DNA from: an uncultured bacterium
GTDB taxonomy: Bacteria; Sysuimicrobiota; Sysuimicrobiia; Sysuimicrobiales; Sysuimicrobiaceae
Assembly: GCA_938028835.1 (NCBI GenBank)
Contig: CALIMJ010000008.1
Span: forward strand, 62,001-126,000
Length of the DNA stretch: 64,000 nucleotides
Direction: 5' to 3'
The position numbers were made by a program, and so were the translations under genes. Below are positions 22,412 through 39,530 of the stretch, one piece after another. A model generated the notes under the pieces. The model ran no database searches. It saw only the letters and a program-made list of their open reading frames with translations, and was not told the origin of the DNA. The first letter of the stretch is position 1; each line of letters starts with the position of its first letter.

Positions 22412-23688
22412 CGACCTCGGAGGAACTGTTCCGGCGGGCCCGGCGCGTGATGCCCGGGGGGGTCAGCAGCCCGGTGCGGGCGTTCCGCGCCGTGGGAGGG
22501 ACTCCGCCCTTCCTCGTGCGGGGGGACGGCGCGTACGTGGAGGACGCGGACGGGCGGCGCTACGTGGACTGCGTCAACTCCTGGGGGGCGCTGATCCTGG
22601 GCCACGCGCACCCCGCGGTGGTGCGGGCGGCCCAGCAGGCGGTGGCTGAGGGGAGCAGCTTCGGGGCGCCGACGCCGTGGGAGGTGGAGTTCTGCGAGCG
22701 GCTGTGTGCGGCGGTGCCCTCCGTGGAGGTGGTGCGGCTGGTGAACTCGGGCACCGAGGCGGTGATGAGCGCCCTGCGGGTGGCGCGGGCCGCCACGGGT
22801 CGCGACGGGGTGGTGAAGTTCGACGGCGGTTACCACGGCCACGCGGACGCTCTCCTGGTGCGCGCGGGTTCGGGCGTGGCCACGTTGGACCTGCCGGACA
22901 GCGCGGGCGTGCCACCGTCCGCGGTGCGGGCCACCGTCTCCCTGCCGTACAACGACCTGGACGCGGCGCGGGCGTTTTTCGAGCGGCGCGGGCACGAGAT
23001 CGCGGCGGTGCTGGTGGAGCCCGTGGCGGGCAACATGGGCACCGTCCCTCCCGAGCCGGGCTTCCTGCAGGGGCTGCGGGAGCTCACGGCCCGTTACGGG
23101 GCGCTGCTGGTGTTCGACGAGGTGATCACGGGATTCCGGCTGCGCTACGGCGCGGCCCAGGAGGCGTTCGGGGTGCGGGCGGACCTCACGTGCCTGGGGA
23201 AGATCATCGGCGGCGGCTTCCCCCTGGCTGCCTACGGCGGCCGGGCCGACCTCATGCGGCTGGTGGCGCCCGAGGGCCCCGTCTACCAGGCCGGCACCCT
23301 CTCCGGGAACCCCGTGGCGGTGCGGGCAGGGCTCGCCACGCTGGGGGTGCTGGAAGACGGGGCGGTGTACGCGCGGTTGGAGCGGTGGGGACGGGTCCTG
23401 GAGGACGGCCTGCGGGAGGCGGCCCGACAGGCAGGCGTGGAGGTGTGGGTGAACCGAGTGGGCTCCATGCTGACGGTGTTCTTTACGCGGCAGCGGGTCG
23501 TAGACTACGGCACGGCCCGCAGCTCTGACGGGGCGCGGTTCGCCCGGTTCTTCCACGGGATGCTGTCCCGCGGAGTGTACCTGCCGCCCTCGCCCTTCGA
23601 GGCCTGGTTTCTGTCCGCCGCCCTCGGCGAGCAGGAGGTGGATCGGATCCTGCAGGCGGCCCGGGAGGCGTTCCGGGAGGCGGCATGA
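22396..23688 (+). CDS. hemL: Glutamate-1-semialdehyde 2,1-aminomutase
   Basis: A 430-residue PLP enzyme making 5-aminolevulinate. The PLP lysine is K269 (GKIIGGGFPL), and MPGGVSSPVRAF, NSGTEAVMSALR and DEVITGFR are the family's hallmarks. The GTG at 22396 has GAAGGA six bases upstream; a GTG at 22408 overlapping the hemB stop is an alternative. It completes the C5 route to 5-aminolevulinate; no hemE or later haem genes are in the window. Confidence 0.96.
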   Translation: MASAVTTSEELFRRARRVMPGGVSSPVRAFRAVGGTPPFLVRGDGAYVEDADGRRYVDCVNSWGALILGHAHPAVVRAAQQAVAEGSSFGAPTPWEVEFCERLCAAVPSVEVVRLVNSGTEAVMSALRVARAATGRDGVVKFDGGYHGHADALLVRAGSGVATLDLPDSAGVPPSAVRATVSLPYNDLDAARAFFERRGHEIAAVLVEPVAGNMGTVPPEPGFLQGLRELTARYGALLVFDEVITGFRLRYGAAQEAFGVRADLTCLGKIIGGGFPLAAYGGRADLMRLVAPEGPVYQAGTLSGNPVAVRAGLATLGVLEDGAVYARLERWGRVLEDGLREAARQAGVEVWVNRVGSMLTVFFTRQRVVDYGTARSSDGARFARFFHGMLSRGVYLPPSPFEAWFLSAALGEQEVDRILQAAREAFREAA

Positions 23689-25102: not shown

Positions 25103-26643
25103 CGGAACTGACCGAGGTGTCCGTCCCCACGCGCCACGGCGAGATCCTCTGCACACCGGAGTTCGGCCGCTGGCTGGAGCTGGCGGAAGCCACCGCCCGG
25201 CGGCTGGACGCAGTGCGCGTCTTCGGCGAGCCCCTGGGCGTCCTGCGGGCGCAAGCCCGGTGCGAGCTCGTCGGACAGGCGCGGGCCCTGCTGGGCCGCT
25301 GGGGCTTCGCGCCCCCTGAGGGCTGCAACGGTCCGTGGGTGGTCACCGCCCACCAGCCCACCCTGTATCACCCCGGGATCTGGATTAAGACGTGGGCGGT
25401 GGACCTCAGTGCGGGCCGGGGGGCCACCGGGCTGCACGTGGTGGTGGACTCTGATGAGTGCCAGGCCTGGGGCGTCCGAATCCCGCGGCGGGACGGTGCG
25501 CTGCGGGCGGTGCAGCGGACCCTCGCGGAGTGCGGTGAGGGCGTTCCCTTCGAGGCGGCTCCAGTACCCGAGGAGGCCCGCTGGCGGGCCTTCTGCGCAC
25601 AGCTGCGGGACGACCTGAAGACCCTCGGTCTGCCGGAGCTGGTGGAGCGGGTCTTTTGGGCGGAACGCGCGGGTCTGGAAAGCCTCTCCCCGGCGCGGCA
25701 CCTGGGCGAGTTCGGGGCTGCCCTGCGCAGGCGGTTGGAGGCGAAGCACCGGCCGGTCCGCTACTGGGAGGTGACCGTATCCGAGCTGTCGCAGACGCGG
25801 GCGTTTCGCCAGTTCGCCGGCTGGATCGCCCGCGACGCGGAGCGCTTTCGCACCTGCCACAACGCGGCCCTGGAGGAGTACCGGCGCCAGCAGGGCGTGC
25901 GGTCCGCGGCGCAGCCGTTCCCCGACCTCCGGCAGGAAGGCGACTGGGTGGAGCTACCCTTCTGGCTGGTTCGGGAGGGGGTACGGCGGCCGGTGTTCGT
26001 GCGGCCCGGAACTCGCCCCGTGGTGTCCTGCGAGGGCAAGCCTCTGGGCGAGCTCACGGACGGCGGACTGGAGGGCCTGCGGCCCAGGGCCATCACCCTC
26101 ACCCTGTTCCTGCGGCTGCTGGTCGCGGACCTGTTCGTGCACGGCGTGGGAGGCGCGCGTTACGACCGCGTCACGGACCGGGTCCTGCAGGAGTTCTTCC
26201 GAGTACCACCGCCACCCTTCGCGGTCCTCACGGCCACCTTCCACCTCCCGCTGGCGCGGCACGCAGACCCGAAGGCGGCGTACGCGGCCGCGCAGCGCCT
26301 GTGGCTGGACCTGCAGCACAACCCGGACCGGCACCTGCCGGACCCCGCGCCGGCACGCCCCCTGGTGGAGGAGAAGTGGCGCTGCATCCGGGCTCTGGAG
26401 GCCCCGGACCTACCCCGGTCCGGCCGGCGCGAGCTCACCCGGCGCATCCGGGCCATCAACGAGGCCCTGCGGGTCCACCTGCACCGCCGGATCGCGGAAG
26501 TGGAGGCGGAGCTGGAGGCGTTGCGGCGCGAGGTGGAGGAGCACGAAGTCGCCGCGGATCGAGGCTACCCGTTCTTCCTGTTCGACCCCGAGGAGGTCTG
26601 TGCGCCGTTACGGGCGCAGGAGGGGGTAGGGTGCGGCCGCTAG
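25099..26643 (+). CDS. BshC-like protein
   Basis: A 514-residue protein that I do not recognise with certainty. Two regions parallel BshC, the enzyme that adds cysteine in bacillithiol synthesis: the N-terminal VVTAHQPTLYHPG followed by VVVDSDE, and the later FVHGVGGARYDRVTDRVL segment. The C-terminal 80 residues form a predicted coiled coil (VEAELEALRREVEEHE) as in BshC. Identity to true BshC is clearly low. It overlaps the PIG-L gene by four bases, which supports a shared pathway. Confidence 0.55.
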   Translation: MTELTEVSVPTRHGEILCTPEFGRWLELAEATARRLDAVRVFGEPLGVLRAQARCELVGQARALLGRWGFAPPEGCNGPWVVTAHQPTLYHPGIWIKTWAVDLSAGRGATGLHVVVDSDECQAWGVRIPRRDGALRAVQRTLAECGEGVPFEAAPVPEEARWRAFCAQLRDDLKTLGLPELVERVFWAERAGLESLSPARHLGEFGAALRRRLEAKHRPVRYWEVTVSELSQTRAFRQFAGWIARDAERFRTCHNAALEEYRRQQGVRSAAQPFPDLRQEGDWVELPFWLVREGVRRPVFVRPGTRPVVSCEGKPLGELTDGGLEGLRPRAITLTLFLRLLVADLFVHGVGGARYDRVTDRVLQEFFRVPPPPFAVLTATFHLPLARHADPKAAYAAAQRLWLDLQHNPDRHLPDPAPARPLVEEKWRCIRALEAPDLPRSGRRELTRRIRAINEALRVHLHRRIAEVEAELEALRREVEEHEVAADRGYPFFLFDPEEVCAPLRAQEGVGCGR

Positions 26644-27311
26644 ACCCCGTGGTGACGGAAGCCCTGAGCCGGCGGTTCGGCGCGGTGGTGGCCCTGCGGG
26701 GGGTAGGGCTCCGGGTCCGGGAGGGCACGTGTCTGTTGCTGGTGGGCCCCAACGGGTCCGGCAAGACGACCCTGCTCCGGGTGCTGGCCACCGCCCTGCG
26801 CCCCACGGAGGGCCGGGCGTGGGTGGGGGGCTACGACGTGGTCTCGGAGGGCCACCGGGTACGGGAGGTGTGCGTGTACCTGGGGACGTCACCGGGCGTG
26901 TACGCAGGCCTCACCGGGTTCGAGAACTTATGCCTGGCCGCGGACCTGTGTGGTCGGCCGCGGCGGCAAGTTCCGGAGCTGCTGGCGTGGGCGGGGCTGG
27001 AACCGGTGGCCTACACGCTGACAGGTACCTACAGCCTCGGCATGCGCCGGCGGCTGGCCCTGGCACGGGTGCGCTTGCAGGAGCCCCGGGTGCTGCTTTT
27101 GGACGAGCCCTTCGTCGGCCTGGACGAGGACGGGGCCCGGCTGGTGAGCGAGCTGGTGGCGGGAGTCAAAGACCGGGGAGGCGCGGTGGTACTGGCTACC
27201 CACGACCACCACCGCGCGCGGGCCCTGTGCGACGCGGTAGCAGAGCTGGACTCCGGCAGGCTGCTGAGCTACGGCCCCGCGGGGCTTGCCGGGGCGGTGA
27301 ACCGGGGATGA
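26631..27311 (+). CDS. ccmA: Haem exporter ATP-binding protein CcmA
   Basis: A 226-residue ABC ATPase with Walker A GPNGSGKTT, a slightly degenerate signature TYSLGMRRRLALARV, Walker B LLLDEPFVGLD and the ATHD switch. With CcmB and CcmC it releases haem-loaded CcmE outside the membrane. GTG 26631 follows GGAGGGGGTAGG and overlaps the previous gene. The ccmB ATG overlaps its stop. Confidence 0.85.
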   Translation: MRPLDPVVTEALSRRFGAVVALRGVGLRVREGTCLLLVGPNGSGKTTLLRVLATALRPTEGRAWVGGYDVVSEGHRVREVCVYLGTSPGVYAGLTGFENLCLAADLCGRPRRQVPELLAWAGLEPVAYTLTGTYSLGMRRRLALARVRLQEPRVLLLDEPFVGLDEDGARLVSELVAGVKDRGGAVVLATHDHHRARALCDAVAELDSGRLLSYGPAGLAGAVNRG

Positions 27312-27961
27312 GGGCGTGGCGGCGGGTGGTAGCCGTGGCCCGCAAGGACCTGCTCCTGGAGTGGCGCGGCCGCGACGCCCTAATCCCCGCGGGCAGCTTC
27401 GGCCTGGCGGTCCTGCTGGTGCTGGGGTTGGTATCGGGGGGCGGGTGGGAAGCTGCACCCCCCGCGCTGTGGGTGTCGCTTCTCCTGGCGGCCGTGGTGG
27501 CCGCAGGACGGGGTGCGGATCGGGAAGGGGAGGAGGGAACCCTGGAGGCACTGCTCCTGTACCCCGGGAGCCGCGAGGATCTGTTCTGGGGAAGGTGGTT
27601 GGCCGTCTGCGTGCTGCTGCTGCTCCTGGGCGCGGGGCTGTGGGGCGTGCAGGTCCTGCTGTTCAACGCGCCGACGCGCGGGGTGGGTGTGCTGGTGCTG
27701 GCGGGCTTGCTGTCCGCGTTCGGGCTCGCCGCGGTGGGCACGTTGTTGGCCGCGCTGCTGACCCACGTGCGGGCCGGGCCGCTGCTGATGCCCCTTTTGT
27801 TCCTGCCCGCCACGGTCCCCGTGTTGCTGGCGGGGGTGCGGCTTTCGGAGGCGGCGGCCTCCGGCGCGCCCGCGGGCCCGTGGTGGGGAGTCCTGGCGGT
27901 GTTCGACCTCCTGTTCCTCCTGGTGGGCCCGGCGTTGTTCGAGGTGGTGGTGGAGGCGTAG
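27308..27961 (+). CDS. ccmB: Haem exporter permease CcmB
   Basis: A 217-residue six-helix membrane protein. The N-terminal VARKDLLLEWRGRDAL and the DREGEEGTLEALLLYPGSRE loop are CcmB hallmarks. It forms the membrane part of the CcmA-dependent release step for holo-CcmE. Confidence 0.9.
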   Translation: MRAWRRVVAVARKDLLLEWRGRDALIPAGSFGLAVLLVLGLVSGGGWEAAPPALWVSLLLAAVVAAGRGADREGEEGTLEALLLYPGSREDLFWGRWLAVCVLLLLLGAGLWGVQVLLFNAPTRGVGVLVLAGLLSAFGLAAVGTLLAALLTHVRAGPLLMPLLFLPATVPVLLAGVRLSEAAASGAPAGPWWGVLAVFDLLFLLVGPALFEVVVEA

Positions 27962-27964
27962 GTT

Positions 27965-28603
27965 TTGCGGCCGTTTGCGGTGGGAGCGACTGCGGCGCTG
28001 CTGAGCGTGGGCCTGTTCCTGGCCCTTTGGGTGTCGCCCCCTGACAGCTACCAGGGGGAGTACGTGCGGATCCTGTACGTACACGTGCCGGCCGCCCTGG
28101 CGGCCTACGGGGCAGCCGCGGTGGCCTGCGGGGCCAGTGCCCTGTACCTGTGGCGGCGGGATTTGCGGTGGGACTTCGTCGGGCGCGCGGGCGCGGAGCT
28201 GGCCGCCCTGTTCTCCGGGCTGACCCTCCTCACCGGGATGCTCTGGGGAAAGCCGGTGTGGGGTGTGTGGTGGGCGTGGGACGCCCGGCTGGTCACCACC
28301 GCGGTGCTGTTCTTGCTGTACGTGGGCTGCCTGCTGGTGCGAGATCTGGCGGACGACCCCGAGCGGGGCCGGAGGCTGTCGGCGGCGGTGGCGGTGCTGG
28401 CCTTCCTGGACGTGCCCGTGGTTCACTACTCGGTGGTGTGGTTTCGCACCTTGCACCAGGGCCCGTCCATCAGCCTCCAGGGTGTGAAGCTGGCGCCGGA
28501 GTTCCTCCTGCCGCTGGCGGTGAACACCCTGGCCTACCTGGCCCTGCTGGGTGTGCTGCTGGCCGAGCGCGCGCGCCTGGCGAGTCTGGAGGTGGAACGT
28601 TGA
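27965..28603 (+). CDS. ccmC: Cytochrome c maturation protein CcmC
   Basis: A 212-residue haem-handling protein with six predicted helices. The tryptophan-rich KPVWGVWWAWDARL motif and the flanking histidines in YVHVPAA and LHQGPS, which hold haem for transfer to CcmE, are present. The TTG start at 27965 follows the ccmB stop by three bases. Confidence 0.93.
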   Translation: MRPFAVGATAALLSVGLFLALWVSPPDSYQGEYVRILYVHVPAALAAYGAAAVACGASALYLWRRDLRWDFVGRAGAELAALFSGLTLLTGMLWGKPVWGVWWAWDARLVTTAVLFLLYVGCLLVRDLADDPERGRRLSAAVAVLAFLDVPVVHYSVVWFRTLHQGPSISLQGVKLAPEFLLPLAVNTLAYLALLGVLLAERARLASLEVER

Positions 28604-28728
28604 GCCCCTGGGCGTGGGTGCTGGCCGCATACGGCTGCGCCGCCCTGCTGGTGGGCGGCTACGTGTGGCGTCTGTGGTGCCGCTACCGGCACGTATCCCG
28701 GGTCAGGCTGGGAGAGGCAGACGGGTGA
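28600..28728 (+). CDS. ccmD: CcmD-like small membrane protein
   Basis: A 42-residue peptide with one membrane helix (about residues 4-26) and a basic cytoplasmic tail, starting with TTG in a TTGA overlap with ccmC and ending in a GTGA overlap with ccmE. Position, size and topology match CcmD, which helps release haem-loaded CcmE. Sequence alone would not identify it. Confidence 0.75.
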   Translation: MSPWAWVLAAYGCAALLVGGYVWRLWCRYRHVSRVRLGEADG

Positions 28729-29135
28729 AGCGGGTACGCTTGGCGGCTGCGGTGCTGGTGGTGGTAGGTTCCCTGGGCTACGTGGTGGCCGGCGGGCTCC
28801 GGGAAGCGGTGGTGTACTACGTGACGCCCACGGAGCTGCAGTCCAGGCCCCTGGACCCCCGCAGGCCGGTGCGGGTCGGCGGACAGGTGGTCCCGGGCTC
28901 GCTGCGCCGGGAGGGCGGCGTGCTGCGCTTCGTGCTGTCCGACGGGCAGGCCCAGGTGGCGGTGCGGTTCGCGGGCAGCGTGGAGGGGCTGCTGGTGGAG
29001 GGTCAGGGCGCGGTAGTGGAAGGCCGGCTGGGGCCGGACGGAGCCCTGGACGCCCGCAGCGTAGTGGTCAAGCACTCGGAGGAGTACACGCCGCCCCGGT
29101 CTCCGTTGCCGCCCGCGGAGCGGAGCGCGCCCTGA
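28725..29135 (+). CDS. ccmE: Haem chaperone CcmE
   Basis: A 136-residue periplasm-facing haem carrier with an N-terminal anchor (about residues 5-24) and the OB-fold body (PVRVGGQVVPGSLRREG). The covalent haem histidine is in KHSEEY, the HxxxY form of the family. It would deliver haem to a CcmF-type synthetase; ccmF, ccmG and ccmH are not in the window. Confidence 0.94.
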   Translation: MKRVRLAAAVLVVVGSLGYVVAGGLREAVVYYVTPTELQSRPLDPRRPVRVGGQVVPGSLRREGGVLRFVLSDGQAQVAVRFAGSVEGLLVEGQGAVVEGRLGPDGALDARSVVVKHSEEYTPPRSPLPPAERSAP

Positions 29136-29308: not shown

Positions 29309-30211
29309 TTGCGCCGACGTGAAGCCGGGCTTCTGTGCGGTCGACGGCCCCATGTGGGGGGCTCCGGCGGGTGGCTGTTGCTGCTGGCGGTCCTCAGCCT
29401 TGCGGGCTGCCAGCCCTACGTCCAGGTGAGCACCGCCGCCCGGGAGGCCTACGAGCCCCTCGAAGGGTTCGTGGTGCGCATGAACTTCATGCCCCGCAAG
29501 CCCAGTGCGGATGAGGGACGCAAGATCTACGAGGCCCGCTGCGCGGTCTGCCACGGGCCCGAGGGCCGTGGGGACGGTCCCATGGCGGAGCAGCTGACGG
29601 CTCCAGAGAAGAACCCATACACGGACTTTTTGAGCGTGTTCCGCATCCACCCCAAGACCGAGCCGCTGCCGAGTCGGCCCGCCCGGTTCGACAACCTGGA
29701 CCAGATGCGGCTGAACGCACCCTTCGCGATGTTCGAGACCATCGCCCGGGGCCGTCCCCACACCGCCATGCCCGGCTTCCAGCATCCCGCGTACGGTGCG
29801 GTGGACGGGGGGAAGCCGTATCTGTCGGACCAGGAGATCTGGGACGTACTGTTCTGGGAGTGGAGCCGGACCACGAGCCGCGACCGGCTGGCCCAGGGAA
29901 GGCGGATCTACAACCAGCTGTGCGCCAGCTGTCACGGGGTGGCGGGGGACGGGAACGGTCCCGAGGCCGCCCGGATCCGCGAGCAGGTGTGGACGTGGGC
30001 GCGGGGCGTGGGGCCGGGGATCTTCACGGATCGCGACTGGATGGCCTACCGAAACCCCACGGAGCTGTACCAGAGGATCGCGGAGGGAGTGCACCGGCGC
30101 GGGCTGGAGCTCATGCCCGCCTACGCGGGCAAGCTCTCTGCGGACCAGATCTGGACCGTGGTAGAGTACCTGTGGACGTTCGTGTACACGCCGCCGCAGG
30201 ACCTGCGCTAG
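29309..30211 (+). CDS. Dihaem cytochrome c lipoprotein
   Basis: An exported protein of about 300 residues with lipobox LSLAGC (C34) after a hydrophobic segment. It has two class I cytochrome c domains: CAVCHGPEGRGDGP in the first and CASCHGVAGDGNGP in the second, each with a later Met-containing segment (TAMPGFQ, ELMPAYAG) as likely axial ligand. TTG 29309 with GGGAGG is preferred; starts further upstream add an unlikely basic leader. It lies 28 bases before the Rieske gene and is the likely electron acceptor of that complex. Confidence 0.85.
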   Translation: MRRREAGLLCGRRPHVGGSGGWLLLLAVLSLAGCQPYVQVSTAAREAYEPLEGFVVRMNFMPRKPSADEGRKIYEARCAVCHGPEGRGDGPMAEQLTAPEKNPYTDFLSVFRIHPKTEPLPSRPARFDNLDQMRLNAPFAMFETIARGRPHTAMPGFQHPAYGAVDGGKPYLSDQEIWDVLFWEWSRTTSRDRLAQGRRIYNQLCASCHGVAGDGNGPEAARIREQVWTWARGVGPGIFTDRDWMAYRNPTELYQRIAEGVHRRGLELMPAYAGKLSADQIWTVVEYLWTFVYTPPQDLR

Positions 30212-30239
30212 CTGTAGGTGCGGCAACGGAGGCGGGGCA

Positions 30240-30884
30240 GTGAACCGTCGGACGTTCCTCAAGGCGCTGAGTGCGGTGCCGGTGCTGGGAGCTCTGGGCG
30301 CGTTCCTGGCGCCGGTGTTGCGGTACCTGAAACCGAACCTGGAGCCGGGGTTGGGCGTTCCCCAGGGGAAGATACCCCCGGACCTCGCGGAGGGAGACCT
30401 CCCCAAGGGGGAGCCGCTCGCGATCGCCACCCTGGAGGAGTTGCGGGAGCCCTGGTCCAGCAAGTTCTTCGTGTTCACCCAGAAGTACCCACAGTACACG
30501 CCGGAGCTGGCCAAGGCGGCCACGGTGCCAGGAGTGGCCATCAAGCTCCCGTGGAAGCTGGCGTTTCCGGGCTACAAGTCGGGGAAGGAGCCCACGGACA
30601 TCGTGATCTTCTCCCGCATCTGCCCGCACCTGGGCTGCATCTTCAACTACGTGCCGAACTGGCGGGAGGTGACGGCAGGCTACGGCGGGTACATGCCGCC
30701 CGAGGAGCGCCGCCACGGTCTCATGGCCTGCCCCTGCCACCTGTCCATCTACGACCCTGCAGACCGCGAGCAACCCGGCCGAGTGCTCTCGGGACCCGCG
30801 CCCCGGCCGCCCCGCTACTTCAGCTACGAGATTCGCGACGGGGTCATCGTGGTGACCGGCGCTGAGCCCGGCGGGATTGCCTAG
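30240..30884 (+). CDS. Rieske iron-sulfur protein with Tat-type signal
   Basis: A 214-residue [2Fe-2S] subunit of a quinol:cytochrome c oxidoreductase. NRRTFLKAL followed by a hydrophobic helix is a Tat signal anchor. Cluster box I is C128-P-H130-L-G-C133 and box II C164-P-C166-H167; C133 and C166 should form the family's disulfide. In box II the usual glycine after the histidine is leucine (CPCHLS). An insertion of about 20 residues lies between the boxes. GTG 30240 starts the gene; cytochrome b follows after 12 bases. Confidence 0.93.
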   Translation: MNRRTFLKALSAVPVLGALGAFLAPVLRYLKPNLEPGLGVPQGKIPPDLAEGDLPKGEPLAIATLEELREPWSSKFFVFTQKYPQYTPELAKAATVPGVAIKLPWKLAFPGYKSGKEPTDIVIFSRICPHLGCIFNYVPNWREVTAGYGGYMPPEERRHGLMACPCHLSIYDPADREQPGRVLSGPAPRPPRYFSYEIRDGVIVVTGAEPGGIA

Positions 30885-30896
30885 GGAGCCGGAGCG

Positions 30897-32045
30897 ATGT
30901 GGGACCGGCTGCGGGAGTGGTTCCGGGAGCGCAAGGAGAAGCTGGACCTGTTCGACGAGACCCAGGTCGACCGCCAGGACAATCCCCTCTACCTCCTCGG
31001 CCAGATCGTGTACTTCTCGTGGATCGCGGTGGTGGTGAGCGGGATCCTCCTCATGATCTGGTACGAGCCCACCACCCACGGCGCCTACAACTCCATCCTC
31101 CGCATCCAGCACGAGGTCCCCTTGGGCTGGCTCATCCGCGGGGTGCACAAGTACGGCGCGGACATGCTGATCCTCGCCATCACCCTACGCATCTACCGGA
31201 TGTACTTCCTGGGCGAGTACAAGCGGCCCAACGAGCTGTCGTGGATGATCCTGTTCGGTTCCCTGGTGCTGGCCATGATCTCCGGCCTCACGGGGTACCT
31301 GCTGATCTGGAACCAGCGGGCCTTCTGGGCGGCCAAGGTGGTCCTCACGGTGGCCGTGTACCTGGACGAGCTGCCCCTCATCGGACAGACGCGGTTCGGC
31401 AGTGCCATCGCCTTCGCCTTCCTGGGAGGGCCCGCGGAAGGGCAGGGCACCCTCACGCGCTTCTACGCCATCCACTTCGGCATCTCGGCCCTGCTGCTCG
31501 TGGCCGCGGAGATCTACTTCTACTTCACCCGGCGACGCCGGTTCGTGCTATCCCCCACAGCCCTGGTGATCCTCACCCTGATGCTGGTGGTGACCAGCTA
31601 CGTGTTCCCCGCGGAGATGGGACGCCGGGCGGACCCGAACCGGACGCCGCTGCCCATCCTGTCCGACTGGTACTTCCTGGCCCTGTACCAGTACGTGAAG
31701 TACACCCCGCCCCTGTGGGCTGGACTGGGCCCGGGTCTGCTGATCGCGTACGGGATGTTGGTGCCCTTCCTGGACCGCAGCAAGGGTCGCAGGCCCTCGG
31801 AGCGCCCCTTCTTCACCGTGGTGGGGGTCATGGCCCTCGTCTACTTCCTGGTGTTCACCGCCCTGATCATGTTCAACATCGCGGTGATCGGCCGGGACCC
31901 GCACGTGGTCCTGCTGGTCACCGCCGCCACCCTGAGCGTGGGCCTGGGGTTGGAGTTCCGGTACCGGCGGCGGAAGAAGCTAGAAGAGGCTGCCGCGCCG
32001 TCCCCGGCGCCGCGGGCGGCGCCGGCCCGCGCGACGGCGGGGTGA
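30897..32045 (+). CDS. Cytochrome b (b6/subunit-IV fused type) lacking haem bH histidines
   Basis: A 382-residue membrane protein combining the b6-like N-terminal four helices and subunit-IV-like C-terminal helices. In helix B H84 is present but the position 14 residues later is R98; in helix D H193 is present but the equivalent positions are Y207 and F208. The pair retained (84/193) corresponds to haem bL on the positive side; both bH ligands are missing. The Qo motif is S256-D-W-Y rather than PEWY. GLTGYLLIWNQ is the usual helix C motif. The last 40 residues are a basic then Ala/Pro-rich tail. It would partner the Rieske protein upstream. Confidence 0.88.
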   Translation: MWDRLREWFRERKEKLDLFDETQVDRQDNPLYLLGQIVYFSWIAVVVSGILLMIWYEPTTHGAYNSILRIQHEVPLGWLIRGVHKYGADMLILAITLRIYRMYFLGEYKRPNELSWMILFGSLVLAMISGLTGYLLIWNQRAFWAAKVVLTVAVYLDELPLIGQTRFGSAIAFAFLGGPAEGQGTLTRFYAIHFGISALLLVAAEIYFYFTRRRRFVLSPTALVILTLMLVVTSYVFPAEMGRRADPNRTPLPILSDWYFLALYQYVKYTPPLWAGLGPGLLIAYGMLVPFLDRSKGRRPSERPFFTVVGVMALVYFLVFTALIMFNIAVIGRDPHVVLLVTAATLSVGLGLEFRYRRRKKLEEAAAPSPAPRAAPARATAG

Positions 32046-32049
32046 GGCG

Positions 32050-32313
32050 GTGGAGGCGGTCCGGTTCGGGGTAGCTTTCGGCCTGGCGGTGGCAGGCCTG
32101 CACGGGACCTGGCAGGCGGCGCGCCTGGCCTGGGGGCAACCCCAGCCGGAGCGGTGGCTTGTGGCGGCCGGGTGGCTGGCGGTGCTGGTGGCCTCGGCCG
32201 CGTGGGCGGGTTACGTGCTGTACGCCGCGGACCGACGGGCGGGCCGGGTCCGCCGGCGGGTAGGGGTGTACGAGCGCTGGCTGGCTTTCCAGAGAGGCGG
32301 GAGGTGGCCGTGA
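32050..32313 (+). CDS. Small two-helix membrane protein of the cytochrome b cluster
   Basis: An 87-residue protein starting with GTG four bases after the cytochrome b stop. Two hydrophobic helices (about 6-25 and 38-58) are followed by a basic tail (DRRAGRVRRRVGVYERW). No family recognised. Its position between the two cytochrome b genes suggests an accessory subunit. Confidence 0.65.
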   Translation: MEAVRFGVAFGLAVAGLHGTWQAARLAWGQPQPERWLVAAGWLAVLVASAAWAGYVLYAADRRAGRVRRRVGVYERWLAFQRGGRWP

Positions 32314-32513
32314 GGGAGGGAGACCGAGGCGGCTGGTACCTGGCCCTGGCGGGGTTCCTGGCAGCGCTGGCCCTGGTCTGCGTGGGTCTGATGGTGTACG
32401 GGGAGTGGTTCGACCGACACCTGGTGGCCTCCGGGGCCATGGGCGTGCTGCTGGTGCTGTACGCGGCCATCGTGGTGCTGTTCCGCAAGGCGCACCTGAC
32501 CGCGGAGGACTAG
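32310..32513 (+). CDS. Second small two-helix membrane protein of the cytochrome b cluster
   Basis: A 67-residue protein with GTG at 32310 overlapping the previous stop and GGGAGG five bases before. Helices at about 9-29 and 39-59 flank the EWFDRHL loop. No family recognised; it is one base from the next gene and almost certainly part of the same complex or operon. Confidence 0.65.
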   Translation: MREGDRGGWYLALAGFLAALALVCVGLMVYGEWFDRHLVASGAMGVLLVLYAAIVVLFRKAHLTAED

Positions 32514-32514
32514 G

Positions 32515-33690
32515 GTGTACCGGCGGTCGTTGCTGAGCCTGCAGAGTGCCACCCTGCGGCTGGACACGTGGATCAACCGCGTCCTTCCGCAGGACTTCAA
32601 CCCCCTCTACTACACGGGCGGGCTCGCGAACCTGTTCCTCACCCTCCTGGTGGTGTCGGGGATCCTCATCTTCCTGTACTACGAGCCGAGCCTGGAAGGC
32701 GCCTACGCCTCCGTGGAGTTCCTCACCCGGGACGTGCCGTACGGGGTCGTGTTCCGCGGGATCCACCGCTACGCCGCGGACGCGTACCTGGTGGCCATCC
32801 TCCTGCACCTGTTCCGGAACTGGTTCACCGACCGGTACCGGGAGGCCCGGGACAGCCAGTGGCTTTCGGGGATGTTCCTGCTGGTGGTCTCGGGCTTTGC
32901 GGGCTTCACCGGCTACCTGCTGGTCTGGGACGAACGGTCGCAGTTGCTGGCGAGCCTGACGGTCCAGGCCCTGCGGTCCGTTCCCCTGGTGGGAGACTGG
33001 CTCGCCCGGGTGTTCCTGGGCGGCCCGGGTGTGAACGACACCACCCTGCCGCGGTTCCTCTTCCTCCACGTGGGGCCCGCCATGACCCTGTACGTGCTCC
33101 TCTGGTGGCACTACGTGCGCCTCCGCCACCCCAAGATCTGGCCCCCCTCGGTGTGGGTGCTCTTCAGCCTGGGCCTTCTGTTTATCCTCGCCTCCGCCCT
33201 GCCCGCCACCAGCGGGCGCCCCGCACAGCCGGGCGCTTCCCCGGAGGGGTTTGCGGTGGACTGGTTCTTCCTGTGGCCGTACGTGCTGGCCCGCTGGATG
33301 GCGCCCGGTTGGGCCCTGGCCCTGGTGGTGGCCCTGGTGGCGTCCGGCATGGTGGTCCCCTACACCCTGCGGGAGACCCCGGAACAGCGGGGCGTGCGGG
33401 CGCTGGGCCAGGCGGTGGTGGTGGAGGAGAACTGCACGGGCTGCGAGCTGTGCTACTACGACTGCCCGTACAACGCGATCTATATGGTGCCGAGCCCGTA
33501 CCCCGGCAAGAGCCGGGCCGCGGCCAACCGCAAGCTGCTGGCGGTGGTGGTGGACTCCCGGTGCGTGGAGTGCGGGATCTGTATCGGCGCCTGCCCCTTC
33601 GAGGCCCTGGAGTTGCCGAGGATGCTGGACAAGGACGTGCAGCAGCGTATCCAGCGGGGCGCGCGGGCCACAGCCCCGGTGAGTTCCTGA
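32515..33690 (+). CDS. Cytochrome b fused to a 2x[4Fe-4S] ferredoxin domain
   Basis: A 391-residue fusion. The membrane part has a complete haem set: H84 and H98 in helix B, H185 and H199 in helix D; FTGYLLVWDE is helix C. The subunit-IV-like part is short, with V248-D-W-F instead of PEWY. After the last helix, residues 301-365 form a bacterial ferredoxin domain with C307, C310, C313, C317 and C350, C353, C356, C360, each last Cys followed by Pro. This should place two low-potential clusters on the cytoplasmic side next to haem bH. An MvhD-like gene follows directly. Confidence 0.9.
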   Translation: MYRRSLLSLQSATLRLDTWINRVLPQDFNPLYYTGGLANLFLTLLVVSGILIFLYYEPSLEGAYASVEFLTRDVPYGVVFRGIHRYAADAYLVAILLHLFRNWFTDRYREARDSQWLSGMFLLVVSGFAGFTGYLLVWDERSQLLASLTVQALRSVPLVGDWLARVFLGGPGVNDTTLPRFLFLHVGPAMTLYVLLWWHYVRLRHPKIWPPSVWVLFSLGLLFILASALPATSGRPAQPGASPEGFAVDWFFLWPYVLARWMAPGWALALVVALVASGMVVPYTLRETPEQRGVRALGQAVVVEENCTGCELCYYDCPYNAIYMVPSPYPGKSRAAANRKLLAVVVDSRCVECGICIGACPFEALELPRMLDKDVQQRIQRGARATAPVSS

Positions 33691-33700
33691 GGCGAGAGCC

Positions 33701-34132
33701 ATGGCGACGGTACCGGATCGGACCCCGCAGGCGCAGGAGGGAGCCCCCCGGGTGGTAGGGTTCCTGTGCGACTGGGCGGTACGCAGCGAGGGACTTCTAA
33801 ACGCCGACGACACCCTGGTGGGTATGCCGCACGTCACGGTGATCCGGGTCCCCTGCTCAGGGTTCGTCAAGCCCGGGTGGCTGGAGCTGGCCCTGCGCAG
33901 CGGCGCCGCGGGCGCCTTCGTGTGCGGTTGTCCCATGGGGGACTGCCTGAACCGGGAGGGCAACTGGATCATGGAGGATCGCATCGACCAGCTGCGGAAG
34001 CGGTTGAGCCGGCAGAAAGTGGACCCTGAGCGGGTGGCGTTCTTCGCGTTCGGCCTGCACGAGCGGGAGGCCTTCCTTCGCGCGGTGGCGGAGTTCGTGG
34101 ACCGGGTGCGCGGATCCGGGGGGAAGCGGTGA
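33701..34132 (+). CDS. MvhD-like (hydrogenase delta-subunit-type) iron-sulfur protein
   Basis: A 143-residue cytoplasmic protein of the MvhD family, which in methanogens passes electrons between a hydrogenase and heterodisulfide reductase through a [2Fe-2S] cluster. VGFLCDW (C23), RVPCSG (C52) and CGCPMGDC (C75, C77, C82) reproduce the family's cysteine pattern, except that the second Cys of CNWC is Ala. It lies 10 bases after the cytochrome b-ferredoxin gene and is its likely electron partner. No hydrogenase or HdrA gene is in the window. Confidence 0.85.
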   Translation: MATVPDRTPQAQEGAPRVVGFLCDWAVRSEGLLNADDTLVGMPHVTVIRVPCSGFVKPGWLELALRSGAAGAFVCGCPMGDCLNREGNWIMEDRIDQLRKRLSRQKVDPERVAFFAFGLHEREAFLRAVAEFVDRVRGSGGKR

Positions 34133-34245
34133 CGCGGTTGGGCCCGAAGCGGTGGAAGACGTACCTGTGGTACGCCCTGTTCTACCTGCTGTTCTTCGCT
34201 CTGTTGCTGTTCGTGGCGGCCTTCGGTCTGGTGGCGGAGGCGTAG
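34129..34245 (+). CDS. 38-residue single-helix membrane peptide
   Basis: A tiny gene with a GTGA overlap to the MvhD-like gene: a basic N-terminus (RLGPKRWKTYLWYA) and one hydrophobic helix (about 13-33) with an acidic end. Size and place just before a CcoN-like gene recall small oxidase subunits such as CcoQ, but the sequence does not confirm this. Confidence 0.55.
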   Translation: MTRLGPKRWKTYLWYALFYLLFFALLLFVAAFGLVAEA

Positions 34246-34260
34246 CGGAAGGGACGCGGT

Positions 34261-35655
34261 ATGCTGGCGTGGATGTTCACCGACGAGCGGTGGAGCTCCG
34301 TCCGGCGGTTCCTGTACGCGGGCGCGCTGTGGGGGATTCTGGCGCTGGCGTACGAGGTGCTGGCTGCGGCGCAGCGGGCTTGGCCTCAGGTCCTGGCGGA
34401 CGTCCCATGGGTGTCCCACGGCCGGGTGGTGGCCATCGGACAGGACCTGTGGGTGTTCGGTTTCCTGTCCCACCTCCTGGTGGGCGCCGCACTCCGCGTG
34501 GTGGGGCAGGGCGACCGGGAGGGGCTGTGGAGCGAGCCCCTGGCCAACCTGAGCCTGTGGCTGTGGGGTGCGGCGCAGGTCCTGAGTGGGTGGTGGATCT
34601 CCACGGGCTGGACCCGAGGCCGACCGCTCGGGGAGGCTCCCTGGCCGGTGGACCTCATGCGGCTGGCGGGCGCGCTGCTGCTGCTGTGGGTGGTTCGCAA
34701 CACCCTCGCCCGATCGCCCCGGCGAGATCCCGCGCTGGCCCTGGTGTTCGCAGGCTTCGCTGGGCTGCCTGTGGTCCTGCTACTGGGCAAGGGCCTGTTC
34801 TGGCCCTTCCACAACCCCTACCACGGGATCCTGGACGCGCTGAGCCAGGCCTTCCTGCGGGCAGGCCTGGTCTGGTTGTGGGCGGTCCCCCTGGCCGGCG
34901 GGGTCTCCCTCTACGTCCTGTCGGCCCTCACCGGCCGGCCGGGGCTTTCGGAGGGTCTGGGCTTTGCGGCCCTGTTCGGCCTGGTGAGTTTCGGGGCTCT
35001 GACCGGGCCCGCGGAGTTCGTGTGGGGTCCGGTGCCCTTCTGGGCGCAGACCGTGGGCACTGTGGCGCAGGGCCTGCTGGTGTTGCCGGTGGCGACGCTG
35101 CTGGCGGGCGCCGCGCGGTCGCTGGAAGGGCACTGGCAGTCCCTCGGGGACCACCCCGGTGTGGCCTTCGTGCTGGCAGGCTGGCTGGCGCTGTCCTCCG
35201 GTGTCTCCTTGAGCGCCCTCGCGTCCCTCGTGGGCCCCAGCCGCGTAGTGCACCTCTCCCTGTGGGGAGAGGGGGTGCGGGTTCTGGTGCTCGGCGGCTG
35301 CGCGGCGGTGGCCGTGGGGTGTGCCTACCTGCTGACGCCACACGTGCTGGGACGGTCGCTGGCGAGCCGGGCCCTAGCCTGGCGGCATCTGTGGCTGGTG
35401 GGGGTGGCGTGGGCGCTTTCGGCGCCCGCGCTGCTGCTGGCGGGCCTGACCCAGGGCGCGGTGTGGGCCACGGGCACGGTGCCCTTCGCGCACGCGGTAC
35501 AGGCCATCCGGCCCCTGCTGGCCGCGGCGTGGGCCGCGGCCTTCCTGGTGTGGGTGGGCCAGGGGGTGTTCGCCTGGAACCTGTTCCTGACCGCGGACTC
35601 CGGCGAACCGGTTCCCGCCGCGGAGCAGGAGCTCCTGCCGGTGGCGGGGTCTTAG
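34261..35655 (+). CDS. CcoN-like haem-copper oxidase subunit I homologue with degenerate active site
   Basis: A 464-residue protein with about 12 hydrophobic helices, related to cbb3 oxidase subunit I. H53 (WVSHGRVVAIG) fits the helix II low-spin haem ligand. In helix VII the GPHHLHY CuB motif reads GPAEFVW (about 249-255), so both CuB histidines are lost, while the following FWAQTVG keeps the family pattern. Around helix X a single H331 replaces the HxH pair. H184 and H188 (FHNPYH) lie near the helix VI CuB position. It probably cannot reduce oxygen normally and may carry only a low-spin haem. The alignment is by eye. Confidence 0.7.
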   Translation: MLAWMFTDERWSSVRRFLYAGALWGILALAYEVLAAAQRAWPQVLADVPWVSHGRVVAIGQDLWVFGFLSHLLVGAALRVVGQGDREGLWSEPLANLSLWLWGAAQVLSGWWISTGWTRGRPLGEAPWPVDLMRLAGALLLLWVVRNTLARSPRRDPALALVFAGFAGLPVVLLLGKGLFWPFHNPYHGILDALSQAFLRAGLVWLWAVPLAGGVSLYVLSALTGRPGLSEGLGFAALFGLVSFGALTGPAEFVWGPVPFWAQTVGTVAQGLLVLPVATLLAGAARSLEGHWQSLGDHPGVAFVLAGWLALSSGVSLSALASLVGPSRVVHLSLWGEGVRVLVLGGCAAVAVGCAYLLTPHVLGRSLASRALAWRHLWLVGVAWALSAPALLLAGLTQGAVWATGTVPFAHAVQAIRPLLAAAWAAAFLVWVGQGVFAWNLFLTADSGEPVPAAEQELLPVAGS

Positions 35656-35690
35656 GGGCGCGCTAGGCGGTCAGTCCTGGAGGTGGTGCG

Positions 35691-36149
35691 GTGAGGGACT
35701 CCGTGGGAGCCACGGGACGGTTGGTGGTGGCCGCGGTGGTGTGTGGATTCGTGGTGACCGCCCTCCTGCCCGCCCTAGATCCTGCGGTCCGGAGCGCGCG
35801 TGCGGCGCCCCTGTCGGCCCAGGCGGCGCGGGGGCGGTGGGTGTACGTGAGGGAGGGATGTGTAGCCTGCCACACCCAGCAGGTGCGGGGGGTGGAGGCC
35901 CGGTTCAGCGTGGTGCGGGCGCAGGGCGACGTGGGGGAGGTGTCAACTGCGGGGCAGTACGCGGGGCAGGACCCCGCGCTGCCGGGCCGGCTGCGCCTGG
36001 GGCCGGACCTGGCGCGTGTAGGGGCGCGGAGCTCGGGGCAGGAACTGCGGTCGGCCCTGCTGTCGGGCGCGGGCGGCATGCCCTCTTACCGGTACCTGGC
36101 GGACGCGGAGCTGGCTGACCTGGTGGCGTACCTACTGGCCCTGCGGTAG
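35691..36149 (+). CDS. CcoO-like membrane-anchored monohaem cytochrome c
   Basis: A 152-residue protein with one N-terminal anchor (about 10-30) and the CcoO signature: GRWVYVREGCVACH (C57, C60, H61), then LRLGPDLARVG and the Met in GGMPSY as likely sixth ligand. It is shorter than standard CcoO (about 200 residues). GTG 35691 has GGAGGTGG upstream. It follows the CcoN-like gene, as CcoO follows CcoN, which supports the pairing. Confidence 0.85.
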   Translation: MRDSVGATGRLVVAAVVCGFVVTALLPALDPAVRSARAAPLSAQAARGRWVYVREGCVACHTQQVRGVEARFSVVRAQGDVGEVSTAGQYAGQDPALPGRLRLGPDLARVGARSSGQELRSALLSGAGGMPSYRYLADAELADLVAYLLALR

Positions 36150-36157
36150 GAGGCGAG

Positions 36158-36703
36158 ATGGCAAACGAAAGGATCCCCGCGAGGCCTTCCCGCTGGCTGC
36201 TGGCGCTGTACGTGCTGGTACCCCTGTGGGCCCTGGCATACCTGTTCGTGGCGGGCGGATTGGTACAGCCCGAAGTCAGGCCGGTGGCGCGGAACGTGGA
36301 GGGGGTTTCGGTGGGCGCCGCGGCGGCGCCGGACGGCTCCGAGCAGGTCCTGGCGATCCTCGCGGTGGTACCGGCGGCGGCCAGGGACGCCCGGCCCCCG
36401 CGTCCGGTGGCAGACGCCATGCTGTCCCAGGCCAAGGCCCAGTACGACACCCTGTGCGCGGTGTGCCACGGCCCCGAGGGACGGGGGGACGGCCCGGCGG
36501 GCGCGGCCCTGAACCCCAAGCCCCTCAACTTCCACTTCCGCGCGTTTCAGGAGCGGATGCCGGTCGGCGCCACCCACTGGGTGATCAAGAATGGCCTGGG
36601 CAACACTCCCCGCCGCAGCGGGATGCCGGCCTTCGGCCAGCTCCCGGACGACCAGATCTGGGCCCTGGTGGAGTACGTCCGGCGGCTGGGCCGCCAGCCA
36701 TGA
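36158..36703 (+). CDS. Membrane-anchored cytochrome c (CcoP-like role)
   Basis: A 181-residue protein with an N-terminal anchor (about 13-35), a variable spacer and a class I cytochrome domain with CAVCHGPEGRGDGP and the later Met in GMPAFGQLPDDQ. Only one haem site is present, unlike dihaem CcoP. The haem segment closely resembles that of the dihaem lipoprotein at the start of the cluster, suggesting an internal duplication. Its stop overlaps the next gene (ATGA). Confidence 0.85.
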   Translation: MANERIPARPSRWLLALYVLVPLWALAYLFVAGGLVQPEVRPVARNVEGVSVGAAAAPDGSEQVLAILAVVPAAARDARPPRPVADAMLSQAKAQYDTLCAVCHGPEGRGDGPAGAALNPKPLNFHFRAFQERMPVGATHWVIKNGLGNTPRRSGMPAFGQLPDDQIWALVEYVRRLGRQP

Positions 36704-37677
36704 CGCAGGCCGCGGCAGACGCCCTGGCTTCCGCCTACGCGCCGGTGCGGGAGGACCTGGAGCGGTTGCAGGACCTGCTGCACCGGGAACTGGCTGCCCA
36801 CGACCCCTTCCTCATGGAGCTGGTGTCCCACGTGCTGCAGACCCGGGGCAAGATGGTGCGACCGGCGCTAGCCTTCTTGTGCGCGCGCCTGGCAGGAGGG
36901 GGAGGGGCGGACCGCGACCTGGTCGCCGCCGCCGTGGAGCTCATCCACGTGGCCAGCCTCATCCACGACGACGTGATCGACGAGGCGGACCGCCGGCGCG
37001 GGCAGGCCACGCCCAACGCCCGGTGGGGCAACCACGTGGCCGTGTTGCTGGGCGACTACCTGTTCAGCAAGGCCTTCCACCTGCTGTCCCGGGTGGGTCG
37101 GGACGACGTGGCGGGCCGGGTGGCCTTCGCCACCGTGCGGATGAGCCAGGCGGAGCTCCTTCAGGTGAAGTACGGCAACGCCCCGCACACGGACGAGTCG
37201 GTGTACTTCGCCATCGTGGAGGGCAAGACCGCCCAGCTGGTTTCGTCCGCGTGCGCGGGGGGGGCCCTAGTGGGAGGAGGGGACGGGGAGCTGGCCGAGC
37301 GGCTGGGCACCTTCGGGCTGCACTGGGGCGTGGCGTTCCAGATCACCGACGACACCCTGGACCTCACCAGTGACCCGGAAGTGCTGGGCAAGCCCATCGG
37401 AAGCGACGTGCGGGGAGGAAAGGTCACCCTGCCCTTGATCCACGCCCTCCGCCACGCGGACGAGCAGGGCCGCCGGCGGCTGGAGAAGTGGATCCGGGCT
37501 GGCGAGCTGGAGCCGCTCCGGGAGGCCCTGGATCGGTCCGGGTCGCTGGCCTACGCCTTGGAGGTAGCCCGGCAGCACGCCCAACGGGCACTCCGTGTCC
37601 TCGAGACCCTTCCTCAGGGGCCGGAGCGCGACAGCCTGGCGGCCCTCACGGAGTTCGTGGTCTCCCGCCGCCACTAG
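36700..37677 (+). CDS. Polyprenyl diphosphate synthase
   Basis: A 325-residue trans-prenyltransferase of the HepT/IspB group. The first Asp-rich motif is D90-D-V-I-D94 (HDDVIDEADRRRG) and the second D217-D-T-L-D221. It elongates isoprenoid chains, probably the side chain of menaquinone used by the complex upstream; chain length cannot be told. The four-base overlap with the cytochrome gene places it in the respiratory operon. Confidence 0.9.
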   Translation: MTQAAADALASAYAPVREDLERLQDLLHRELAAHDPFLMELVSHVLQTRGKMVRPALAFLCARLAGGGGADRDLVAAAVELIHVASLIHDDVIDEADRRRGQATPNARWGNHVAVLLGDYLFSKAFHLLSRVGRDDVAGRVAFATVRMSQAELLQVKYGNAPHTDESVYFAIVEGKTAQLVSSACAGGALVGGGDGELAERLGTFGLHWGVAFQITDDTLDLTSDPEVLGKPIGSDVRGGKVTLPLIHALRHADEQGRRRLEKWIRAGELEPLREALDRSGSLAYALEVARQHAQRALRVLETLPQGPERDSLAALTEFVVSRRH

Positions 37678-37749: not shown

Positions 37750-38952
37750 GTGGAGGCGGTGCGGCACTGGCTGGACAGCCTGCAGACCCTCCTGGCGAAG
37801 GTGCGGGAGGCCATGGTGTCGTTCGCGGTGGCCACCACCTCCCGTCACCTGGAGGCGCACCGGGACGTGGTGGTCAGGCGGTGGCGGGCGTCCCTGCAGC
37901 GCCGCGTGGCCCGGTACGCCGAGCACCCGGATCTGTCCGATCGCTGGGGTAAGCAGACGGTCGACTTGCTGGTACGGGTGATGCGGGCCCGGGGCGAGGT
38001 GGAGCGGCTGGAGGCCCGCGATCGGGTCTTCGAGCACGCGCACCGGGTGGCCTCCGAGCAGCTGGAACTGGGGTTCAGCCTGGAGGAGATCCTGCAGGCT
38101 TTGAGCCTGCTCCGGGCCAGCCTGTCCGCCCAGGTGCAGGTGATGCTGAGCCGGCGGCTGTGGGTGGCGTTCCCACCCGACGTGATGCTGGCCACGGAGC
38201 GGGTGCATGAGGCCATCGACCTGCAGATGCTGGCCATCGGCCAGGCGTACCTGGAGGCCCGGGACCGGGTGATCCGAGAGAAGCAGCGGGACCTGGAGGA
38301 GAGCAACGAGAAGCTGCGGACCCTGCTTCGGGAGATGCACCACCGGATCAAGAACAACTTGCAGACCCTGGCCGACCTCCTGTACCTAGAGACCCTGGAC
38401 GCGGGGGGAGCTGCCCGGAAGAGCTTGCTGGACAGTATCGGCCGGGTGAAGAGCATCGCCGCGGTGCACCAGATGCTGTCCGCGGACCGCATCGAGGCGG
38501 TGGAGGTGCGCCGGCTGGCGGAGCGCATCGGGGAGATCATCGGGCGGGATCTGGCCCGGGCAGGCCGCGCGGTGCGCGTGGAGATCCAGGGCCCGGAGGT
38601 GTGGCTACCGAGCAAACAGGCCACGGCCCTGGCCCTCGTGCTGAGCGAGCTGATCCACAACGCGCTGGAGCACGCCTTCCCGGACGGGCGCGGGCGCGTG
38701 GTGGTGGACCTCGGGCAGCGGGGCGAGGAGGTGTGGGTGAGGGTGCGGGACGACGGGGTGGGCCTGCCGCCGGATTTCTCCGTGGAGCGGCACGGGCACC
38801 TGGGCCTGCGCATCGTCCGGGACCTGGTGAGCCGCGACCTGCGGGGCACCTTCGCCCTACGCTCGGAGGGCGGGGCGGTGGCGGAGGTGCGGTTCGCCCT
38901 GCCCGAGGCCGGTGAGGAAAGGGGGCCGGCGGTGGGGGAGGTGTCGGCGTGA
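37750..38952 (+). CDS. Soluble sensor histidine kinase (HisKA_2, PdtaS-like)
   Basis: A 400-residue cytoplasmic kinase without membrane segments. The N-terminal 170 residues are an all-helical RsbR-type or globin-like sensory domain. The HisKA_2 phosphoacceptor box EMHHRIKNNLQTL holds H197/H198. The ATPase domain has N-box ELIHNALEHAFPDG, G1 DDGVGLP and GLRIVRDLV. This class pairs with ANTAR-domain regulators, and such a gene overlaps its stop. The GTG at 37750 is the first start in frame after the preceding gene; later GTG or ATG starts are possible. Confidence 0.88.
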   Translation: MEAVRHWLDSLQTLLAKVREAMVSFAVATTSRHLEAHRDVVVRRWRASLQRRVARYAEHPDLSDRWGKQTVDLLVRVMRARGEVERLEARDRVFEHAHRVASEQLELGFSLEEILQALSLLRASLSAQVQVMLSRRLWVAFPPDVMLATERVHEAIDLQMLAIGQAYLEARDRVIREKQRDLEESNEKLRTLLREMHHRIKNNLQTLADLLYLETLDAGGAARKSLLDSIGRVKSIAAVHQMLSADRIEAVEVRRLAERIGEIIGRDLARAGRAVRVEIQGPEVWLPSKQATALALVLSELIHNALEHAFPDGRGRVVVDLGQRGEEVWVRVRDDGVGLPPDFSVERHGHLGLRIVRDLVSRDLRGTFALRSEGGAVAEVRFALPEAGEERGPAVGEVSA

Positions 38953-39530
38953 AGGACCGTCTGCGCATCCTCATCGCGGACGACGAGGCCATCCGGGTCA
39001 TGACCCTCAGGACCCAGCTGCGGGCCCTGGGCTTCGAGGTGGTGGCGGAGGCCACCAACGGCCGCCAGGCGGTGGAGCTGGCGGAGCGCCACCACCCCGA
39101 CTTGGCCATCCTCGACATCAAGATGCCGGAGCTGGACGGGATCGCTGCGGCGCGGGAGATCACCGCCCGTCGGCCCATCCCGGTGATCCTGCTCACCGCG
39201 TACAGCGAGCCGGAGCTCGTGGAGCGGGCCACGGAGGCCGGGGTGTTCGCCTACCTGGTCAAGCCCGTGAGCGAGGAGGACCTGCTGCCCACCATCCTCC
39301 TGGCGCGGGCGCGGTTCGAGGAGTTCCGGGTCCTGCAGAAGGAGGTGGCGGACCTGCGGGAGGCCCTGGAGGCGCGGAAGGTCATCGAGCGGGCCAAGGG
39401 CATCCTCATGAAGCGGCTAGGGATCAGCGAGGCCGAGGCTTTCCGCCGCATGCAGGTGCAGAGCCAGAAGGAGAACAAGAAACTGGTGGAGATCGCCCGG
39501 GCCATCGTGACCGCCCACGGGGTGCTGTAG
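38949..39530 (+). CDS. Response regulator with ANTAR RNA-binding domain (PdtaR-like)
   Basis: A 193-residue two-domain regulator. The receiver has D11/D12, the phospho-acceptor D56 (LDIKMP) and K107 region (VKPVS). The C-terminal ANTAR domain (about 130-190) shows ARKVIERAKGILMKRLGISEAEAFRRMQ. ANTAR proteins bind paired hairpins and prevent transcription termination. It is coupled to the kinase gene by a GTGA overlap; its RNA target is not identified. Confidence 0.94.
   Translation: MKDRLRILIADDEAIRVMTLRTQLRALGFEVVAEATNGRQAVELAERHHPDLAILDIKMPELDGIAAAREITARRPIPVILLTAYSEPELVERATEAGVFAYLVKPVSEEDLLPTILLARARFEEFRVLQKEVADLREALEARKVIERAKGILMKRLGISEAEAFRRMQVQSQKENKKLVEIARAIVTAHGVL

Follow-up and report, generated by a model that had tools for sequence, protein, structure and literature searches.

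This analysis concerns a run of respiratory genes at positions 29309–37677 of a 64,000-nucleotide stretch of DNA, here called the window, from an uncultured bacterium of the family Sysuimicrobiaceae (order Sysuimicrobiales, phylum Sysuimicrobiota; assembly GCA_938028835.1, contig CALIMJ010000008.1, positions 62,001 to 126,000). All genes of the run are on the plus strand, and most neighbours are 1–35 bp apart or overlap slightly. Pfam and NCBIfam models along the run match cytochrome c, a Tat signal, the N- and C-terminal parts of cytochrome b, cytochrome b with Fer4, FlpD, COX1, FixO and again cytochrome c. The genes listed in a first-pass annotation of this DNA are present and tightly spaced as it described, with family matches for each.

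The core of the run comprises a dihaem cytochrome c, a Rieske protein, a first cytochrome b (b1), two small membrane proteins (sm1 and sm2), a second cytochrome b fused to a ferredoxin (b2Fd, its cytochrome part being b2) and an FlpD/MvhD-like protein. The dihaem cytochrome c (29309..30211) is a lipoprotein with the lipobox LAGC, is the first core gene throughout the order and is likely to be the substitute for cytochrome c1/f. The Rieske [2Fe-2S] protein (30240..30884) carries the Tat signal RRTFLK and the site CPHLGC...CPCHLSIYD. Its ligand motifs CPHLGC and CPCHLS (CxHxGC and CPCH) are kept across 14 sequences, and the serine and tyrosine that raise the potential of the site are both retained. 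Because of the Tat signal and the lipobox, the Rieske protein and the dihaem cytochrome are predicted to face outside. Rieske models of Pfam and NCBIfam match the protein weakly, and PF00355 has no match to it in its own genome even with the ligand motifs intact, and counts of other Rieske proteins made with it are therefore barely informative about the one in the core. Automatic annotation may overlook the complex, given a Rieske protein that is invisible to PF00355. The protein b1 (30897..32045) is a fusion of cytochrome b6 and subunit IV. It is followed by the conserved sm1 (32050..32313) and sm2 (32304..32513), which form a single fused protein in genomes G004 and G006, by b2Fd (32515..33690) with its C-terminal two-[4Fe-4S] ferredoxin and by the FlpD/MvhD-like protein, FlpD for short (33701..34132).

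The two cytochromes b were compared in an alignment of 46 sequences that included b1 (n = 13), b2 (n = 12), canonical controls and the fused proteins described below as type II. Histidines occupy both haem bL positions in all 13 b1 sequences (H84 and H193 in the window). The helix-B ligand position of haem bH is an arginine in 13/13 (R98 in the window) and the helix-D position is Y, F, L or N among the same sequences, which come from the window's phylum and one other. The earlier description of b1 as a bL-only cytochrome therefore holds, and in none of the 13 are the bL and bH histidine pairs present together in this Qo-bearing cytochrome b. All four haem-ligand histidines are found in 12/12 b2 sequences (H84, H98, H185 and H199 in the window) and in every type II protein and canonical control. 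At the Qo position, b1 has a modified PEWY-type motif, P-I-L-[SA]-D-W-Y-F (PILSDWYF in the window), which reads SDWYF both in the order and in G151, a genome of the other phylum, and ADWYF in G386 of that phylum; the DWYF part is invariant. The same position in b2 is variable (VDWF, VAWF, LDLF, IDWL or VDIF), the window having the degenerate VDWF. With b1 devoid of bH ligands and b2 devoid of a good Qo motif, the losses in the two proteins are complementary. In the tree, the b1 sequences cluster as a single clade (98/93; 99% of bootstraps) that joins the canonical cytochromes b (95/98), and for this reason the loss of bH from b1 was probably a single ancestral event. The b2 and type II proteins fall outside this group; their mutual arrangement is weakly supported and the root is uncertain.

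The other end of the core resembles the wiring of heterodisulfide reductases. The HdrA2 model, at its positions 571–773, matches the ferredoxin tail of b2Fd and then FlpD colinearly. FlpD matches PF02662 (2.4e-25), and its predicted fold (pLDDT 85.6) matches MvhD in 5odh and 5odc. Four cysteines (C23, C52, C77 and C82) are invariant in both phyla, and the CxxC pair of MvhD is reduced to one cysteine. As no signal peptide was seen, FlpD is predicted to be cytoplasmic. It is the single PF02662 protein in the window's genome (G000). The HdrA-like partner that had been suspected elsewhere did not appear: no HdrA flavoprotein body was found in this genome, which is 94.7% complete, and in G000 and several relatives HdrA2 is matched only by the ferredoxin and FlpD tail.

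A fused version of the same arrangement exists outside the order. Proteins referred to as type II contain cytochrome b, two [4Fe-4S] clusters and FlpD in one chain. Among approximately 345 genomes sampled outside the order, about 14 encode a cytochrome b with a two-cluster ferredoxin in one protein that is long enough for such a fusion, and Pfam shows the FlpD domain in both type II proteins that were scanned. Their genes mostly lie beside COX1, COX2 and SCO, without Rieske or b1. Type II loci occur in several families (L094:7759-9801, L096:7819-9480, L045, L046, L047, L048, L049 and L098-L101). The fusion is good evidence for a joint role of b2Fd and FlpD.

The distribution of the core was followed through 43 genomes of the order. 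The b2Fd gene is present in 37 of them, and in 37/37 it is directly followed by FlpD within approximately 180 bp. Four of the six remaining genomes belong to one genus (G010, G023, G029 and G032) and clearly have no such set; the other two are G038, whose locus appears to be truncated where its contig stops, and G037. The gene order across families is cytochrome c, Rieske, b1, sm1, sm2, b2Fd, FlpD and polyprenyl diphosphate synthase. The other phylum, sampled by four genomes, keeps the same core order in G151, where CcoN and CcoO/P precede dihaem cytochrome c, Rieske, b1, sm1, sm2, b2Fd and FlpD. Compared with the window, G151 has 42% identity in b1 and 37% in b2Fd, and its sm1 and sm2 were matched by position and size, not by significant similarity. 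A locus of G386 (L111:796-4177) contains dihaem cytochrome c, bL-only b1, b2Fd and FlpD, with no adjacent Rieske, sm1 or sm2. Peptides specific to the order matched named records of the same phylum only, namely, metagenome-assembled genomes labelled Armatimonadetes, Terrabacteria group ANGP1, Bacterium HR32 and similar, which we take to be placed in CSP1-3, now Sysuimicrobiota.

Pairwise distances among cytochrome c, Rieske, b1, b2Fd and FlpD correlate with r = 0.84–0.95, compared with 0.46–0.69 between the core and ccmC/ccmE; all these values partly reflect shared host ancestry, and what is informative is the gap between the values within the core and those for the neighbouring ccm genes. The check for conserved co-occurrence that had been suggested thus found components that do not separate freely, and the comparison supports inheritance of the core genes together, as one conserved unit. 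It also bears on the idea that the operon encodes two independent complexes, one of Rieske, b1 and cytochrome c and the other of b2Fd and FlpD. Such a split would agree with the type II genomes, in which the second set exists without Rieske or b1, and with the origin of b1 and b2 from different branches, subject to the uncertain root. Nevertheless, it is quite improbable, as the complementary losses in b1 and b2 are kept in two phyla, the core distances are tightly correlated and b1 by itself would leave the second electron with nowhere to go.

The setting in the window's family (f1) narrows the possible routes of electrons. Exactly two PF00033 proteins, b1 and b2, are encoded in each of its 7/7 genomes, and they are the only bc-type cytochromes b of the family. 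Because haem bH is gone, b1 would be unable to run a low-potential chain of its own, and with only two PF00033 proteins per genome, an electron from its Qo site would need b2. As the second electron cannot be recycled within b1, it would most simply pass to b2. Electron transfer from one bL haem to the other takes place in bc1 dimers (PMC4330944). The parts, their ligands, the complementary losses, the synteny and the shared inheritance can all be read from the sequences, whereas the physical pairing of b1 and b2, transfer between their bL haems, its direction and the acceptor are inferred.

It is tentatively proposed, at somewhat less than an even chance, that the core genes specify an asymmetric complex of Rieske and cytochrome b proteins, with Qo chemistry at b1, b2 as a wire to cytoplasmic FlpD and quinol bifurcation outward. 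The quinone is likely to be menaquinone because MenD scores above the cut-off in 6/7 family genomes (the exception is G000 itself) and MqnA-type proteins were not found when the futalosine pathway was looked for. Menaquinol would be oxidised at the Qo site of b1; the first electron would pass to Rieske and the dihaem cytochrome c, and the second would pass from bL of b1 to bL and bH of b2, to the two [4Fe-4S] clusters and to FlpD, which would hand it to a cytoplasmic partner encoded elsewhere. More specifically, a heterodimer with its Qo half and bH half on different cytochromes b, whose low-potential electron is exported through a wire of the HdrA/MvhD type and not recycled to quinone, is possible but doubtful.

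The position of b1 and b2 as the sole bc-type complex in f1 can also be read differently, since a full Q cycle may be required for bulk respiration. The Q cycle itself would then be asymmetric: b1 would provide the Qo site, b2 would reduce quinone near bH (Qi), and the ferredoxin and FlpD would serve as a side port or regulator. Residues R202 and R204 of b2, near bH, are invariant within the order together with bH, which fits a quinone site. We regard this arrangement as unlikely, however, because helix A of b2 has no cysteine for haem ci, no clear pattern of bc1 Qi residues is seen and it would not explain why ferredoxin and FlpD are so strictly conserved.

The direction of flow can be approached through energetics, and quinol bifurcation is the leading guess. 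For the complexes of Kuenenia, it has been argued that the potentials of Rieske and bL are roughly symmetrical about that of the quinone (PMC12954380). If menaquinone lies near -70 mV and the Rieske potential is +150 to +300 mV, haem bL is estimated at about -290 to -440 mV. Once a membrane potential of about 150 mV that opposes the inward move is allowed for, the estimated acceptors within reach lie at about -150 to -300 mV or higher. By these estimates, ferredoxin is unlikely as an acceptor and NAD(P) is borderline; an acceptor near -150 to -320 mV, such as the NAD(P) pool reached via a further partner, is more likely than ferredoxin. The path from bL through b2 and the ferredoxin tail to FlpD that the first-pass annotation had suggested is plausible, and its bifurcation to ferredoxin itself is doubtful with menaquinol.

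Electrons may also enter the same asymmetric complex instead of leaving it. A cytoplasmic donor, reduced ferredoxin or another, would feed FlpD, the ferredoxin tail and b2, and from there the quinone or the high-potential chain. This is the thermodynamically easy direction, the type II relatives beside COX1, COX2 and SCO without Rieske make cytoplasmic input a natural reading, and MvhD in known complexes takes electrons from hydrogenase or formate dehydrogenase modules, as judged from general knowledge of the family and from PDB titles. Use as such an input port is nonetheless rather unlikely, since the Qo motif of b1 is invariant and the low-potential electron would have no route except b2.

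Several points weigh against outward quinol bifurcation by the asymmetric complex. An electron that leaves bL for the cytoplasm has to move against the membrane potential, and b2 may still carry a quinone-reducing site. FlpD has no known partner, and none is encoded nearby. The type II fusion is the strongest hint that the b2Fd/FlpD half can work without Rieske; because cytochrome b, ferredoxin and FlpD occur together without it beside haem-copper oxidases, b2Fd and FlpD may act as a unit of their own. G386 and G387, which belong with G151 to the other phylum, have cytochrome c, b1, b2Fd and FlpD with no adjacent Rieske gene. Finally, the AlphaFold model of b2Fd is poor (pLDDT 50); no distances were derived from it.

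Downstream of FlpD lie a 38-aa single-helix membrane peptide (34129..34245), which has a homologue in L042, and an accessory trio consisting of a CcoN-like protein (34261..35655), a CcoO/FixO-like monohaem cytochrome c (35691..36149) and a membrane-anchored monohaem cytochrome c (36158..36703). The CcoN-like protein aligns over its length to structures of cbb3 subunit I, yet it has 0/6 of the histidine metal ligands. None of the six histidines for haem b, haem b3 and CuB is conserved in families f1 and f3, where the open frame itself is conserved; the version of family f6 (L068:2829-4280) is an intermediate that has lost some of the six. In G151, CcoN retains its histidines and a CcoO/P fusion also lies upstream of the core. 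A working terminal oxidase is ruled out for the CcoN-like protein of the window by the loss of all metal ligands, and other COX1 proteins are present besides it. Within the order, the trio occurs only in families f1, f3 and f6, while the core genes stay together, so it is not part of the core, and the inclusion of the CcoN-like gene in the redox path is not upheld. The protein is best viewed as an oxidase subunit that has degenerated but been retained in a different role, perhaps that of holding the two c-type cytochromes.

The run ends with the polyprenyl diphosphate synthase (36700..37677), which is syntenic within the order and probably makes the quinone side chain. Directly 3' of it, at 37750–39530, are a histidine kinase and an ANTAR-like response regulator that are kept in families f1 and f3. 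Upstream, the run is extended by the ccmABC(D)E genes of cytochrome c maturation (26631..29135, plus strand), which are syntenic in many members. In other families, ccmE and the gene for the dihaem cytochrome are separated by a long CcmF-like gene (~660 aa; for example L036:14707-16698), which is missing at this place in the window. At 18449–23688, 5' of the ccm genes, reading of the translations assigned a haem biosynthesis run of glutamyl-tRNA reductase, hydroxymethylbilane synthase, uroporphyrinogen-III synthase, ALA dehydratase and GSA aminotransferase.

The core shares features with several known systems. Canonical bc1 and b6f complexes have a similar Rieske motif, the fold of b6 plus subunit IV, a Qo-type motif and a c-type cytochrome partner, but in these homodimers each cytochrome b binds both bL and bH, whereas in the window b1 lacks bH and a different cytochrome b stands beside it. 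In HdrABC-MvhADG/HdrA2 systems, the C-terminal ferredoxin and MvhD part of HdrA2 is the counterpart of the b2 ferredoxin tail and FlpD; here, the wire is on a cytochrome b, without the HdrA flavoprotein body and with one CxxC cysteine of MvhD replaced. Type II proteins share with b2Fd-FlpD the domain order and the four haem ligands and differ as single fused proteins without Rieske or b1 that adjoin COX1, COX2 and SCO. The trio resembles cbb3 oxidase in its CcoN-like and CcoO-like sequences (f1, f3 and f6), except that the CcoN-like protein of the window has no metal ligand.

The closest precedent is found in Kuenenia stuttgartiensis, an anammox bacterium, whose complexes Kuste4569-4574 and Kustd1480-1485 also join a Rieske/cytochrome b core to a cytoplasmic redox module (PMC12954380). 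Quinol bifurcation to a cytoplasmic acceptor, replacing the Q cycle and using a high-potential Rieske protein with menaquinone, has been proposed for them (PMC12954380), so the general idea of such bifurcation has already been put forward for anammox bacteria. In the Kuenenia complexes, b6 has four helices and subunit IV five, the cytochromes c are hexa- or octahaem, and a flavin NAD(P) oxidoreductase is present; the window has bL-only b1, another cytochrome b that carries a ferredoxin, FlpD and a dihaem cytochrome c. No gene for a flavin NAD(P) oxidoreductase is found in the window cluster, where FlpD stands instead. No description of a bL-only cytochrome b together with a ferredoxin-bearing second cytochrome b and FlpD was found in the open-access literature searched. 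No description of the type II fusions was found there either.

In bc1 dimers, the two cytochromes b are identical, and the extent of cooperation between the halves is debated. If the proposed pairing is true, the complementary losses in two cytochromes b would offer a natural system for testing bL-to-bL transfer, and quinone-based bifurcation would be joined to the wiring of flavin-based bifurcation. Most Sysuimicrobiota genomes contain sulfide:quinone oxidoreductase, and several families contain genes for hydrogenases and nitrite oxidoreductase/nitrate reductase, while the main text of the study that describes the phylum makes no mention of bc1, Rieske or Hdr (PMC11604079). If the asymmetric complex bifurcates quinol as proposed, it could explain how sulfide- or nitrite-fed Sysuimicrobiota are supplied with reductant without full reverse electron flow.

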